Shown here: positions 8,689 to 15,409 of the stretch, one piece after another | Numbering within the stretch: the first letter of the stretch is position 1 | How the letters are laid out: the number at the start of each line of letters is the position of its first letter | Source of the DNA: Dermatophagoides farinae | Taxonomy: Eukaryota; Arthropoda; Arachnida; Sarcoptiformes; Pyroglyphidae | Assembly: GCF_024713945.1 (NCBI RefSeq) | Contig: NC_134678.1 | Span: forward strand, 1-64,000 | DNA: 64,000 nt | Direction: 5' to 3' | The notes under the pieces: model-generated | The model's input: only the letters and a program-made list of their open reading frames with translations | Told to the model about the DNA's origin: nothing | Databases searched by the model: none | Made by a program: the position numbers and the translations under genes

Positions 8689-11472
8689 TTTATCTGTAAA
8701 AGTGCACAAAAAGAAAGAAAAAAGAAAAAGACAACATTTATTTGTAGTTGTAACATTAATCGATTGTGGCTGACAACCCTTCGTTTTAATGATATTTTGT
8801 CAAACACAATCGTGCCTCTCTGTCCAGTCACGCTTGCCATTGTCACCATCAATGGTGAATCAATCACAATTTTTGCACATACAAAGAAAATATCTAGTCT
8901 TTTCTTTTCTTTTCTTGTTGTTAATAGTCGATAGTGGATTCAATTACATTCAGATTCAGATTTATTTATAGAACGATCATCATCATCAAGGATGATCAAA
9001 GGATTTTGTTGCCATTCACTCATTCATCCAGCGAATGAATGAAACATTTGTCATCAGGTGATAATAGACAATGGGCAAACAAATCGATATGCATGGCTGT
9101 TTGGCCATTGCATTATATACCGTGTGAAGAATGTCATCATCATCATCATCATCATCTTGCCATAATTGAATCGGTTAACTGTGTGTATGTGTGTTTTGTA
9201 TATATAGAAAATAATTCACCAAACGACAACATGAGAACCGGAATGCACACAAAAAGCAATCTTTCCGCTAAATGGTCACACATAAACACAAACACACACA
9301 CAGAACCTACATTATTTGACAAAACTGACCAACAGCAGCAGATGATGATGACAATCTAATGATAATCATTTGTTTATCCATGTAAGGATGATGGTCCGTT
9401 GATCATGGTAACGTGCTTGGTCATCATCACTATAATTAACTGGACAATGAGAGCATGTGAACAACTGGACCAATGCAAATCAATGGAAACCAATGGAAAT
9501 GATGAAAATGACCTCAGGAAATTATCAGTTTGTTTCGGTTCATGGAATGGTATGGACGCCTAAAATAGATTACCATTACTATTTGTCCATCCTGTGAAAG
9601 TATTTCATTCAACATTGTTTCAATGTATCGATTACCTGATTACTCGCCAATCAATTACACTGTTGAACCAACTGTCGACAACATTCATTCAGTCATTCAA
9701 CCGTGAAACAAGTGACAAACCGTTTCGTTTCGACATTTCTGGCTCAACGTACCATCCACTGATGATCATCATTGATGATTGATTCACCGACTACGACGAC
9801 GACGACGACGGCCACGATCATCATCTCGATTTAAGGTCAACTATTCACTACTACACTGATCACATCACAAAACCAGCACAATTTTAGATCAAACAATGCT
9901 AAATCGACGCTAATGGGATACCGAATGTCACAGTGCACGATAGATGATCCACACAACAATGCCCTTCAAAATCATTACTGGATAATAATCCAGGTTAATC
10001 ACTCGCACAACAACTGATGCTTACCTTGTTTCAATGTCCACAATATCCAAGTTGCAGTGTTCAATGATCAAGTGTAGATAAACAATATTCGGTTGAAGAA
10101 TCGAAAAGGATTATCATATGAAAATGTTTCATTCAAAGCAATATTGACGATACTTCGGGTAACATTTTGTTCATTACACAGATACACACACACACACACA
10201 CATACACACACACACGGACACACATGTATACAGACGAATGAACCGTCTTCAACGACGACCAGATCGTTTTTGGCTCTCGATCTGGGTCTTGCTTGATCTC
10301 GTCGTCGGTGACACAAGATGATCATGTTCACTCCTAATGCTTTTGACTCTTTCTCCTTGTGCAGAAAGAGAACGACGGTAGAAATATAGATTATAGAGGA
10401 GAATAGAGAAATGTCTAAAATAAAATGCCTAAAAGAGAACCAGATTGTCACCTTTGTTGAATCGATTATCGTCATCGTCATCATATAAAGATTATGATCA
10501 TTTTTATCATATTTATCGGTCACGATTTTTCGCTTCGTCATATGTGTCATTCATTCATGCAAACAATAACGCCGGCCATCCAATTCAATCATCGGTGATT
10601 AGGTCAAAAATTGATACCGCCGCCGCCGTCAAGATCATCATCATCCCGACATTGTTTTGCTCTTTCCATTCCATTCAACCACCTGACCAATCACCACACA
10701 TACACACACACACTGGACACTATTGTCTTGGATAATTGTTTAGCCATGGGCATCGTACGTCCATCATCTTTCAATGAATAAATCGCACACTCGGTCATTA
10801 TATTGTCACATGAATGCATGGAGGATTAAATGGTCTGCAGGCAGCAGGCAGGTTCAATTCCATGATTAGTCATCCATGTGATCAGATATGAATGATGCAT
10901 GAATGATTATCATCATCATCATCATCATCATCATCTGCAATCATTCAATGCAAATCATTATTATGATTAGCCAAACACGCGATGCAAAGACAATGCTTTG
11001 GTTCAACGTAATTACTCGGATTGAATCCGGTTAATAATAATTAATCAAACAATGTATTGTGATGACTGCTGAACCAAGCCCTTTGACCGTATTTCATTGT
11101 TTTGTTGAATTCCAGGTTAATATCTAGTTGACTATAATCACAAATTTCATTTAATGTGACATATTTGCATTGTCATCGCATCCGATCATCTCCATTCATT
11201 GCCAATGTCGTTGATCATTAATCGGTGGCTAAAGTTATTGCTCTCACCATACTAATCAATCGCTGATAGATTGAATATTTGCTCTACGACGACATATCCA
11301 ACCAATGAGCACTGAGCAGTTGGTTCGATCTGCTGCCTTTTATCATCAATATGATAAGTCATCGATTAATTTCAAGGAAAACAAAATACAACAATCTTTT
11401 ATTTTAATCAAATACAACTACCATATAATTATAGAATGACAGATATTCAGATACATTCAGACATTCAGATAT
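8689..11472. other. 2.8-kb non-coding interval with microsatellites
   Basis: No supported gene. The ORFs here are short, lack family resemblance and run through simple repeats: (CA)n near 10182-10214, (ATC)n near 9136-9156 and 10910-10935, and (GAC)n near 9793-9810. The right end carries the 3' flank of the Argonaute-like gene. The left end is the promoter side of the 838-residue secreted protein. Confidence 0.5.
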
Positions 11473-13393
11473 TCAGATATTCAGGTTATTGAGTGACATG
11501 AATTCCTTGGTATTCATCGTTTGAATGCGCAACTTGGCCATATCGTCGGCCAATTCCAGACAAACAGGCACATCGTTGACAAAAAAGGATTGCACCTTGT
11601 AATGACACAACGCGAAACAGAATTGAGCCAGAACAGAAACAGGCAACTGCATCTGGTCCCGAATGACGTGATATTTAGTCGGTCGCAACAGCTTCAGTCC
11701 ATAGTTGGAATTGTCGGCAAACAGGCAAAACGATTTGTATCCAACAATCAGACTCCGTTTAAAGGGAGCTTCGGCCATCGTACCGTACATTGTACCACCA
11801 CCACTACCTTTCATGAGACATTCGCGAGGCTTCTTCTCGACCAGCAAACAGGTCAGCTTGGTGTTGGTCATATCCAATTTGGTCATCACATCCTGAATGA
11901 TCGAGATCATCGCTTCAAAGTGTACGTTGGGCAGCCTTTCGAATGACAACAGGTTTCGAAACAAAAAAATGAAATTCGGATACTCGTCGTTCGTTTGTTT
12001 GAATTGTTCCATTGCCTTGACCATCTGTTCCAATGTGAGACCATCAGTCCACTTGACAGCTTTGTTCATTCGGTCGTCCAATGAAACCCAGAAACCGGTC
12101 GCCGACTTTTGGCCCTCTTTCCGGTGGTAACAACCAATCACCATAGTGCGACCAATGTCAAACGATGGACAATGAAGCTTCATCACTTGATGATTCAGGT
12201 AATCACAATCGACAATGTTCACCGACCCATTGAACGTACGACAAAGTTTGATCACCACTCGATCAATCAATACATCACCACCATTATCGCCAAGCAATTC
12301 GTGGGAAGCGAAATTGAAGCAGGAGAAATTATTTTTCCGGGCCAAGTACTCGGACAAGTTGAACACTGTTTGAGCATTGTGGACATTTGCCAATGAGATA
12401 CCTGAATGATAATGATAATAATAATAATAAAAAAAAAACAAAATGATCATCATCATCATCATCATTATGAAGCTTAATAATGGCCCATTTATCTCATATT
12501 GAGAGAGAGAGAGCCACCACCATTTTGCTCGTCGTCACGGTCCAACGAGATTACAACAACAAACCTTCATTGATGAGCACTATGGCCAATCGTATTTGAT
12601 CATTCGTGGCCAATCGGGAAAAATAGCAACCCATTTCTTGAGGTGAATTGATTCGAATCGATTGACATTGGACACAGTCCTCTTTCGAAAGCGCTCTGCT
12701 CATTCCATATTTCACAGCCTTCGCAATGATCCCATCTCTGAATGATGTCAATATCGATTCATCGTCTTCGAATCGTTTGTCGTTCAACGAGATGATTGCC
12801 CATTTGCACGGTTCAAAATCAGTATCGTAGAATTGCCCACAATGGTCACCATCTGGCGGCAATAATCGGGGCTGTGGCAAAATCCTGGCCTCGTATTCAA
12901 TCGGATTCAAATCGATGACAATTTGTTTATAGCGAACCAATTCAGCCAAATAACGGGCATAGTTTCGTATCTTTTCGAAACATTTATCGGCCGACACACT
13001 GGCCTGATGACGCAATATGTCTCGATAAGTGTGCGACAGTTTGTCGTACATAAACGGACTGAATCCAGCATCCAGAGTAAACAATTTGGCGTTGATATTC
13101 AACAAAAAGGGCTGCGAACCGTCCTCTTGATAGGGTCGACATATTTCAATCGTGAAACCGGCCACAATCTGAAAATAGCAGCTTGAATTGTCTACCTCAT
13201 TATTATTGTCGTTCACATAGATTACATCATTCTTGTCGATGAATCTGCCTTTGCGATACAAAAATCCCAGCTTCAGGTGCTGATTTATGGTGCTGAGCAA
13301 AAGACGTTCAGAAATTGGATTCGCAGCGAATGAAATGGTAAAATAATTGGATGTCAATGCGAAACACGAATCGTCGTCTGTTGTTGAATCCAT
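11473..13393 (-). CDS. Divergent Argonaute-like protein lacking PAZ and slicer residues
   Basis: Two exons, 12565-13393 and 11473-12401, join in phase to give 585 residues, far below the usual 850-1000. Order of regions: N/L1-like with GFTIEICRPYQ at 80-90 and an L1-type LNI segment at 98-111; then directly an L2-like segment (EARILPQPRLL, 168-178); MID from about 197 (CKWAIISL) to 290; PIWI from about 315 to the end. The strongest PIWI matches are TKLTCLLVEKK (457-467) and the end block PTKYHVIRDQMQLP with LCHYKVQSFFVNDVP. The roughly 130-residue PAZ domain that should lie between L1 and L2 is missing. By alignment to classical Argonautes the catalytic positions are changed: GAD reads GCY (366-368), YRDG reads FRNL (Asn 426), and the final His falls on Glu 559. 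It may bind protein partners or act as a decoy. Family call is from motif recall, not a search. Confidence 0.8.
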
Positions 13394-13562: not shown

Positions 13563-15409
13563 TCAAAGCTCGACCCTATTACGACGACGACTAGTGAGAT
13601 TACCCTTGACCGCATGACAAACGTTGAGCTCGTGACACACCAAAAGGGCAACATTCTTGGCACCGATAAGACTCATTTCGATGGCACTGGCCGCCCATTC
13701 GATCGCGTTCAGATAATAGACGCCAGCACGAAGACGAAACGGCGGCAATGGCTGCCCGACCGATCGATAATCAGGATATGCGAACCAATTGATTTGCTGG
13801 ATGTCATCGATCTGTTCAAACAAGCCATACAATTCATGAGGATCCAGTTGCCGATTGCTAAACACTTTGTAAACACTTTGCTGCTTGCCTGCTGCTTCGC
13901 TGTTCACTGGTTTGATTCGATTCTGGACAGGCATCAGTTTCGACAACGAAGTGAAAAACGATCCACCACGGCCAATATCACAGCTGAGAATGGAGAGATC
14001 TTTGTACTTGTTCAACACTTGACCTTTGACGAATGTGGCCACCGTACGGTGCATGTGGTACTTGTCGAATATATCGTTGATCAACTCGTTCCGTTTGGTC
14101 AGATTATTGAATTGAATGGAATTTGTCTGGCTGGCCAACGGTGTGGCAATGATGACATGATCATAAATGTCGGATTGTACTGAGTGGTTGTTGTTGACCA
14201 CAACACCATCAAGTCTCTTGGAATCGATTCGAAATCGATGATCGCCCATGTAGTTAATGCTAACCACTTTGGTGTTGAGCATCATTCGAGCTTGTGAGAA
14301 ATGGGCCAAATGTAATGGCAACAATTTGTTGCCACCTTCGATCGCATACAATTGACTGCCTGCGCCGGCAAACGAAACCATACCCACCAATGCCGGTATC
14401 GAGATGGTTTGGCCATAATTCACCAACGATATCGATTGCACTATCTGACTGATGAATTGCTCAGACAGTTTGTATTCGGAATCCAGCATGTGTTTGTACG
14501 ATGTTCGTGTCAGATTGTAGATGAGCGAATCCATTGCCGTGAGCAGATCGCTCACCTGGTCATAGGCATGCTGTTCACTTTGTAATCGATAAATCCTAGA
14601 TCATCAATCATATATAATTATAATCAATATATAATCGGCAATTCACGATATATATAGTATACTCACCTTTCAAAGTGGTCAATCACTTTGGTCACCTGTT
14701 TCTGTAACCGTATCAGATCGAGGCCATAGTATCGCAGTAACCGTATCAATGTGACAATATCCCAGGAACTTTCACAAAACACGAATCGTTCGCCATTGTA
14801 GATGCACAAACGATCATCCGATCGCAGGGCTCGTCTCTTCAGTCCTAAGAGGGAGAATATGTTCAAGTTGAACAACAAATAATAACACAAACAACACACA
14901 CACACATGACTTGATTACCGAATTTTGCCATCAGATCGGCAGCATATTTGTTTCGTTCATGAATGATCGAACCGCCAGCTTCATAATGGTTGTTGTCCAC
15001 GTTGACCGTATGTAGTCGTCCACCGAGACGATAATTTTTCTCGTAAATAGTAATCTCGTGCCGTAGATCACTTTGCTGTTGTTTGGAAAGCAATTCGTTG
15101 AGGAAATATGCCGCTGCAGTACCGCCAACACCACCACCGATTACAGCTAGTCATCATATATGGTGGACAAATTGTAATGGCGCACAGTTAAACAACAGGC
15201 AATCAAGTCAAACTCTCACCTATTCGAATGGTTCGCTGTTGTTGTTCTTGTTGTTGTTGTTGTTGTAGTTTTTCATCGGTCGTCGTCAACAATTGGTCCC
15301 GATGATGAGCATTAAAGGAGCCATCACTTGATTTGATGTCGCTGTACGTGAATGGCAGCAACTGAATGAGCACCAGAGCCGCCGCAACAATGGCTTGTCT
15401 GTTGGTCAT
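13563..15409 (-). CDS. PCYOX1: Prenylcysteine oxidase
   Basis: FAD-dependent thioether oxidase that cleaves prenylcysteines in the lysosome. Four exons, 15220-15409, 14919-15146, 14667-14844 and 13563-14595, join in frame to 542 residues (human protein about 505). The N-terminus is a signal peptide (to about residue 23) followed by a polar, Gln-rich insert. The FAD-binding fold starts at about residue 64 with AVIGGGVGGTAAAYF. Next come the family-typical acidic/GGR region (YEKNYRLGGR), YEAGGSIIH, the GGNKLLPL segment, and a C-terminal YYLNAIEWAASAIEMS block that matches the family. An upstream non-ATG extension exists, but ATG 15409 places the signal peptide correctly. The stop lies 169 nt upstream of the Argonaute-like ATG on the same strand. 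Confidence 0.93.

Follow-up and report, generated by a model that had tools for sequence, protein, structure and literature searches.

Argonautes predicted to lack PAZ in the mite Dermatophagoides farinae: a probable branch of the DEDD clade

Mite Argonautes and Argonautes that lack PAZ

In well-studied animal Argonautes the guide is held between two domains, its 3′ end by PAZ and its 5′ phosphate by a pocket in MID, and a catalytic tetrad cuts. The gene described here raises the question of what use an Argonaute has once its cutting ability is gone. Dermatophagoides farinae has been reported to have eight Argonautes, six of them in a DEDD clade (DfaAgo3-8), and no PIWI protein, and in related mites piRNAs have been lost and transposons are controlled by an siRNA-like pathway (PMC5805368). 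In psoroptid mites, gene knockdown by soaking the animals in dsRNA is reported to be effective (PMC5805368). Psoroptes ovis, the source of the DEDD-clade members PsoAgo8-12, has an extra divergent clade designated ‘P. ovis-specific’ with six members (PsoAgo1-6; five consecutive gene numbers), four of which carry the atypical slicer motif S[E/K]HE (PMC6211577). The main text of that paper contains 0 occurrences of ‘PAZ’. Two P. ovis genes annotated ‘Argonaute protein’ are down in drug-exposed resistant mites (PMC12364353).

Mite Argonautes that are poor in domains and catalytically altered are already on record, from domain look-ups (PMC7659050). According to that survey, Varroa, Metaseiulus and Tropilaelaps have Piwi-family homologues with a PIWI domain only, several of the parasitiform PIWI-only proteins, Ago3 included, are without catalytic residues, and D. 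pteronyssinus has DDD Argonautes. The gene in our window is, like them, a domain-poor and catalytically altered member of the Argonaute family in a mite. Unlike it, however, they belong to the Piwi family and to parasitiform mites, and they were found by looking up domains in annotated proteins, with no control guarding against overlooked exons or diverged domains (PMC7659050). None of the literature matches listed describes a PAZ-less branch of Argonaute-family genes in mites. New here are four further PAZ-less Argonaute genes in the genome that holds the window gene: a tandem trio, PL_A, PL_B and PL_C (C2:6491704-6501434), and a single gene, PL_D (C5:4129416-4131519, 653 residues), which was found by a search with PL_B.

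By analogy, the closest architecture to that predicted for the window protein is that of the PAZ-less long-B prokaryotic Argonautes. The AfAgo/AfAgo-N complex has an N-terminal part, L2, MID and an inactive PIWI, is structurally without PAZ, and binds target DNA via an RNA guide (PMC10954474); it differs in being made of two chains and in that guide, and no common descent with the window gene is suggested. The preliminary description had named the short prokaryotic Argonautes as the closest analogy. These also combine MID with an inactive PIWI, but they consist of MID and PIWI only, whereas the window protein keeps L2 (residues 123-181) and 122 residues ahead of it; the short-Argonaute analogy is therefore not the best one, and AfAgo is closer. 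The Leishmania PIWI-like protein, too, is eukaryotic, Argonaute-like and without PAZ, but it is a mainly mitochondrial protein of an RNAi-negative protozoan (PMC3528672), whereas the mite genome has eight PAZ-bearing Argonautes, RdRP and the five PAZ-less genes.

The window gene and the absence of PAZ

The window, 64 kb long, stands at the start of contig C2 in a genome of 62,435,336 bases and 22 contigs. The gene lies on its minus strand (11473-13393) and has two exons that encode 585 residues plus a stop. Exon 1 (13393-12565, 829 nt) carries residues 1-276 and the first base of codon 277, ending in phase 1; a GT-AG, phase-1 intron of 163 nt (12564-12402) falls at the MID/PIWI border; and exon 2 (12401-11473) runs from the remainder of codon 277 through residues 278-585 to the stop. 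The two stop-to-stop frames measure 285 and 353 codons, compared with a longest stop-free run of 258 codons among 300 copies of the strand (1921 bases) randomised by a first-order Markov model. The full-length, in-frame, cleanly spliced two-exon gene originally described holds up. An AATAAA on the same strand 70 nt past the stop (11398-11403) is weak evidence, because 11% of random 150-nt windows contain one. The next gene upstream is an open frame of the prenylcysteine lyase family (13563-14600, minus; PF07156, E 5.5e-75), which lies on the same strand and stops 170 bases short of the start codon of the window gene.

A Pfam check for PF02171 (Piwi), proposed in the preliminary description, returned a significant match that exceeds the curated cut-off (E 2.9e-9, residues 350-569; 11524-12183, minus), and besides this no family matched the window protein at E<=1. 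Pfam is likewise silent on MID and L2 in the PAZ-bearing control AgoD_C2. To gain sensitivity we used domain profiles cut from an alignment of this genome's eight PAZ-bearing Argonautes, and scans from which one of the eight was omitted at a time served as controls; before alignment the low-complexity N-termini of all eight and the C-terminal tail of Ago2_C9 were trimmed, and the Ago1_C3 model enters without its last exon. These profiles place L2 at residues 123-181 (12851-13027, minus; E 4e-4), MID at residues 197-273 (12575-12805, minus; E 1.9e-5) and PIWI at residues 399-565 (E 1.2e-14), which bears out the assignment of the C-terminal half to MID-PIWI. All three match every one of the five PAZ-less proteins, the weakest match being L2 in PL_D (E 0.0035).

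The region ahead of L2 is less clear. In the window protein the L1 and N profiles score at noise level (E 2.7 and 5.2, respectively). The L1 profile recovers seven of its eight controls and none of the five PAZ-less proteins, and the N profile recognises PL_A and PL_C (E 2e-6 and 7e-6), with the other three at 0.09 or above. When a profile of the five PAZ-less proteins is compared with those of the PAZ-bearing set, N is matched (E 1.6e-6) and L1 falls in the correct order without significance (E 0.04-0.1); against the eight whole Argonautes the match has an E of 7e-47 and extends from template position 327, close to the PAZ/L2 border, to the end. Of the earlier reading that L1-like sequence runs directly into L2-like sequence, the L2 half is thus supported by profile, and L1 is unconfirmed. 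Single-sequence AlphaFold models of exons 1 and 2, made separately, reached pLDDT values of 35 and 38 and were useless for a fold search.

A PAZ profile built from the same genome recovered all eight left-out controls (worst E 4.5e-13) and none of the five PAZ-less proteins: three, the window protein among them, gave no match, and two gave noise (E 3.3 and 6.1). Searching the genome with PF02170 at E<=10 returned nothing at the window gene, the trio or PL_D; its 12 rows of matches fall on the eight PAZ-bearing Argonautes and on three other places, which are presumably Dicers. In profile-profile comparison, PAZ alone met the five-protein profile at E 0.12-0.14. Between L1 and L2 anchors picked by eye, the window protein has 72 residues, and the five PAZ-less proteins have 72, 72, 73, 73 and 106, compared with 181-221 in all eight PAZ-bearing Argonautes. 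The match of a whole-Argonaute profile to the window protein does not begin until model position 329, and by column count L2 starts at about position 331; spacing and profile start together put the expected site of PAZ at residues of about 108-122, just ahead of L2 (13028-13072, minus). The gene leaves no space in which a PAZ exon could hide, because the stretch from the N-terminus to MID is one unbroken exon and the sole intron is 163 nt long; PL_B and PL_D are each likewise a single unbroken exon from the N-terminus through MID. On these sequence grounds the window protein is PAZ-less, in agreement with the preliminary description, which saw no space for the domain.

Kinship with the divergent Argonautes and the state of the paralogues

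A Piwi-family search of the genome, together with searches using the proteins themselves, identified an Ago1-like (C3), an Ago2-like (C9) and six divergent PAZ-bearing Argonautes (one each on C10 and C2, two each on C4 and C8). PAZ-less genes number at least five, at three loci, a lower bound because the searches score just the top candidates. In a tree of the L2 end, MID and PIWI (14 rows, 448 columns; PAZ columns unused) the five form one branch (support 100/99, starred), and the five with the six divergent Argonautes form another (100/99, starred). No order is supported within the PAZ-less branch; the window gene and PL_D are long branches, and the end branch of the window gene measures 2.29 changes per column. 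When PL_D was dropped the window gene stayed with PL_A-C (100/99, starred), and when PL_B was dropped as well the grouping held at 97/98 (starred); with PL_B or PL_D as the only other PAZ-less row kept, support was 81/88 and 83/86, respectively, unstarred and with long-branch warnings. A tree of the PIWI half with PIWI-clade references (18 rows) recovers the PAZ-less branch at 91/99, its union with the divergent Argonautes at only 67/51.

By BLASTP the window protein matches PL_C (E 3e-20), PL_A (7e-19), AgoD_C10 (7e-19) and PL_D (0.003). The PL_C match spans the PAZ junction (residues 76-566), whereas that to AgoD_C10 starts only at residue 162; upstream of residue 124 comparably strong matches are confined to the trio, and those to PL_A and PL_C begin at residue 76. 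At the MID/PIWI border the window gene, PL_B, PL_D and five of the six PAZ-bearing divergent Argonautes all have a candidate phase-1 intron, those of the relatives being the best-scoring candidates predicted from DNA. The simplest reading, though not a proven one, would be that a divergent mite Argonaute lost PAZ once; more than one loss may have occurred, because the window protein is nearly equally similar to AgoD_C10 and to PL_A and PL_C and matches PL_D far more weakly.

The window gene is thus very probably a highly diverged yet still intact gene belonging to a PAZ-less branch of the mite-specific divergent (DEDD) Argonautes. These are described from dust, scab and scabies mites (PMC5805368; PMC6211577) and form a clade with which we equated the six divergent Argonautes of this genome by motif, not by sequence comparison. 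Like most of these six it has the phase-1 intron, and like them it has an Asp at the fourth catalytic position. Unlike them it is without PAZ, three of the four slicer residues and the second PIWI intron, and its 5′-phosphate pocket is altered.

The paralogues differ in condition. PL_B looks intact. PL_A has lost a donor GT that its near-copy PL_C retains, and in PL_C the reading frame shifts within a run of eight A, where an assembly error is possible. PL_A and PL_C are 86% identical, with dN 0.071 and dS 0.124 (ratio 0.57); dN is below dS (Fisher P 0.004). A lone fragment of the C-terminal exon of PL_D at C5:4285132-4285263 (76% identical over 25 residues), considered as a sixth PAZ-less gene, is a C-terminal fragment only and, by its sequence, the trace of a past copy. 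Because PL_A and PL_C carry likely defects and this fragment exists, the PAZ-less lineage appears prone to decay. PL_D has no Pfam match at E<=0.1, and surveys that depend on Pfam models can miss such genes. A search of collections of genome contigs and of viral contigs with the PAZ-less alignment confirmed no relatives. We claim no transposon beside PL_C, since the adjoining open frame, helicase-like by eye, has no Pfam match. RdRP is matched at four sites of the genome, one of which (C5:4164563-4166141) shares a contig with PL_D at a distance of about 33 kb.

Slicer, 5′-phosphate pocket and possible roles

We take the slicer positions of AGO2 to be D597, E637, D669 and H807, and its 5′-phosphate pocket to be Y529, K533, Q545, K566, K570 and R812. 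All six divergent Argonautes of the genome have D,E,D,D at the slicer positions. In the window protein the alignment puts GCY (residues 366-368; 12127-12135, minus) at the site of the first catalytic Asp, which is absent; the glutamate-finger segment is an alignment gap; Asn426 (11953-11955, minus) stands at the Asp of YRDG; and Asp562 (11545-11547, minus) occupies the fourth position, where AGO2 has His and the divergent mite Argonautes have Asp (row -,-,N,D). The segment ‘VPVCLELAD’ aligns without gaps with ‘IPTPIRYAD’ of a divergent mite Argonaute and so puts the DEDD-clade Asp, not a Glu, at this position. The replacement of GAD by GCY and of YRDG by FRNL, read previously from the sequence, is upheld by alignment, but the terminal Glu is not, and the claim that all slicer positions are substituted has to be narrowed to three of four lost.

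The other PAZ-less proteins read S,E,G,Q (PL_A), S,K,G,H (PL_C), D,-,K,Y (PL_B) and N,-,N,I (PL_D) at these positions, and by eye an N in PL_A and an H in PL_C are alternative readings of the third position. If the Glu of ‘LELA’ is taken as the fourth residue, again by eye, PL_A becomes S-E-N-E and PL_C S-K-H-E, resembling the S[E/K]HE of PsoAgo1-6 (PMC6211577); in our alignment other residues fall at positions three and four, and the comparison is one of motif and gene numbers. Because PL_A and PL_C roughly fit that motif, they probably belong to the same lineage as PsoAgo1-6, in which case part of the PAZ-less lineage has been counted before (PMC6211577).

At the six pocket positions the window protein has H,T,N,K,T,L, retaining K566 alone, as expected from the altered 5′-phosphate-binding residues noted at the outset. 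The His at 529 tells little, because the PAZ-bearing, Ago2-like Ago2_C9 has it too. At Y529, K533, Q545, K566 and K570, PL_B retains all five residues, PL_A and PL_C have F,K,Q,K,K and PL_D has H,K,Q,K,R; R812 is altered in all five PAZ-less proteins. In two PAZ-bearing, DEDD-complete Argonautes, AgoD_C8a and AgoD_C2, the pocket is altered as well (K533 to Ser, K566 to Glu and R812 to Lys, and in C2 also K570 to Asn), whereas AgoD_C10 has an intact pocket. The preliminary description suggested a regulator, a decoy or a guide-free scaffold, any of which would be compatible with the loss of most pocket residues in the window protein. For a GW182 decoy we aligned the residues taken to form the tryptophan pocket. 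That model is weakened because these residues are mostly altered even in the six PAZ-bearing divergent Argonautes.

The window protein would no longer be a guide-loaded slicer, because PAZ is absent, the slicer is mostly lost and the pocket is largely altered. The best explanation overall, which we hold with something short of even confidence, is that a PAZ-less Argonaute of the DEDD branch has been kept as a non-cutting, probably guide-independent partner of the siRNA machinery. According to this model the MID-PIWI shell would be retained for contacts with other proteins and would act without cutting, most probably by modulating the PAZ-bearing divergent Argonautes or this genome's RdRP/Dicer siRNA machinery. 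Its relative PL_B, with Y,K,Q,K,K in the pocket, may still hold a guide 5′ end. That the protein is itself a guide-independent regulator is a tentative part of the model, and one we consider somewhat less assured than the whole.

The most serious alternative, although on balance unlikely, is that the gene is a functionless relic, the product of an Argonaute duplication that, with constraint relaxed, lost PAZ, pocket and slicer but has so far escaped a stop codon. A very long branch of 2.29 changes per column, the disappearance of most functional residues, changes that look disabling in PL_A and PL_C among the four paralogues, the PL_D fragment and the weak constraint on PL_A and PL_C (dN/dS 0.57) would all be in keeping with decay. 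However, a neutral gene so diverged should hold many stops and indels, whereas the 585-codon frame of the window gene is intact despite that branch, as are its splice sites; dN is significantly below dS in PL_A and PL_C; and L2, MID and PIWI are each still recognisable. The original summary of the gene as PAZ-less, catalytically dead and not simply decayed therefore draws support from its anatomy and from the four PAZ-less paralogues, but its last element has decay as a serious rival.

Rather improbable, in our judgement, is a PAZ-less, guide-loaded but non-cutting Argonaute that silences by binding its target, in the manner of AfAgo with its N-L1-L2 partner. The AfAgo complex does bind target DNA with an RNA guide (PMC10954474), and the pockets of PL_B (Y,K,Q,K,K) and of PL_A and PL_C (F,K,Q,K,K) would be compatible with such a role. 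In the window protein, however, Y529, K533, Q545, K570 and R812 are all altered. Much less probable still is that the window gene is all that remains of the PIWI clade in a mite lineage from which that clade is presumed lost. A single-sequence search of the PDB finds PIWIL1 (E 0.015) and, more strongly, Siwi (E 2.5e-5), with no AGO at E<=10; some local motifs are PIWI-like by eye, and in the PIWI-half tree joining the gene to the PIWI references is not rejected (p-AU 0.22). Against this, profile bits for its PIWI half favour the mite groups (PAZ-less trio 62.4, divergent mite Argonautes 48.5, PIWI 41.3, AGO 23.5), the best trees put it among the PAZ-less mite genes, and its phase-1 intron is common to divergent mite Argonautes. 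Finally, an artefact of the gene model, with a PAZ exon overlooked, is very improbable, with nothing found in its favour, being refuted for the locus as assembled by the unbroken exon and the 163-nt intron, with PAZ missing alike in five genes at three loci.

Retention of the pocket forms a series, being kept in PL_B, nearly kept in PL_A and PL_C, partly kept in PL_D and hardly kept in the window gene. We raise the speculative and rather doubtful idea that a multigene PAZ-less branch gave up guide use stepwise, its MID-PIWI body coming to regulate, without a guide, the siRNA system by which piRNAs were replaced in related mites. If so, the scaffold role of an Argonaute would be separable from small RNAs in animals. 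A PAZ-less family running from pocket-intact to pocket-altered within one genome would offer a natural series for what guide binding needs. Because related mites control transposons by an siRNA-like pathway (PMC5805368), the PAZ-less proteins may also bear on how piRNAs were replaced. Elsewhere in the genome, the one gene compared out of seven ML-domain places resembles Der p 2 (E 1.4e-30) but is not identical to it, and at C6:4883001-4888000 three tandem papain-family genes carry CGSCAVFS, where other papain-family genes here (L025, L026) carry CGSCWAFS.
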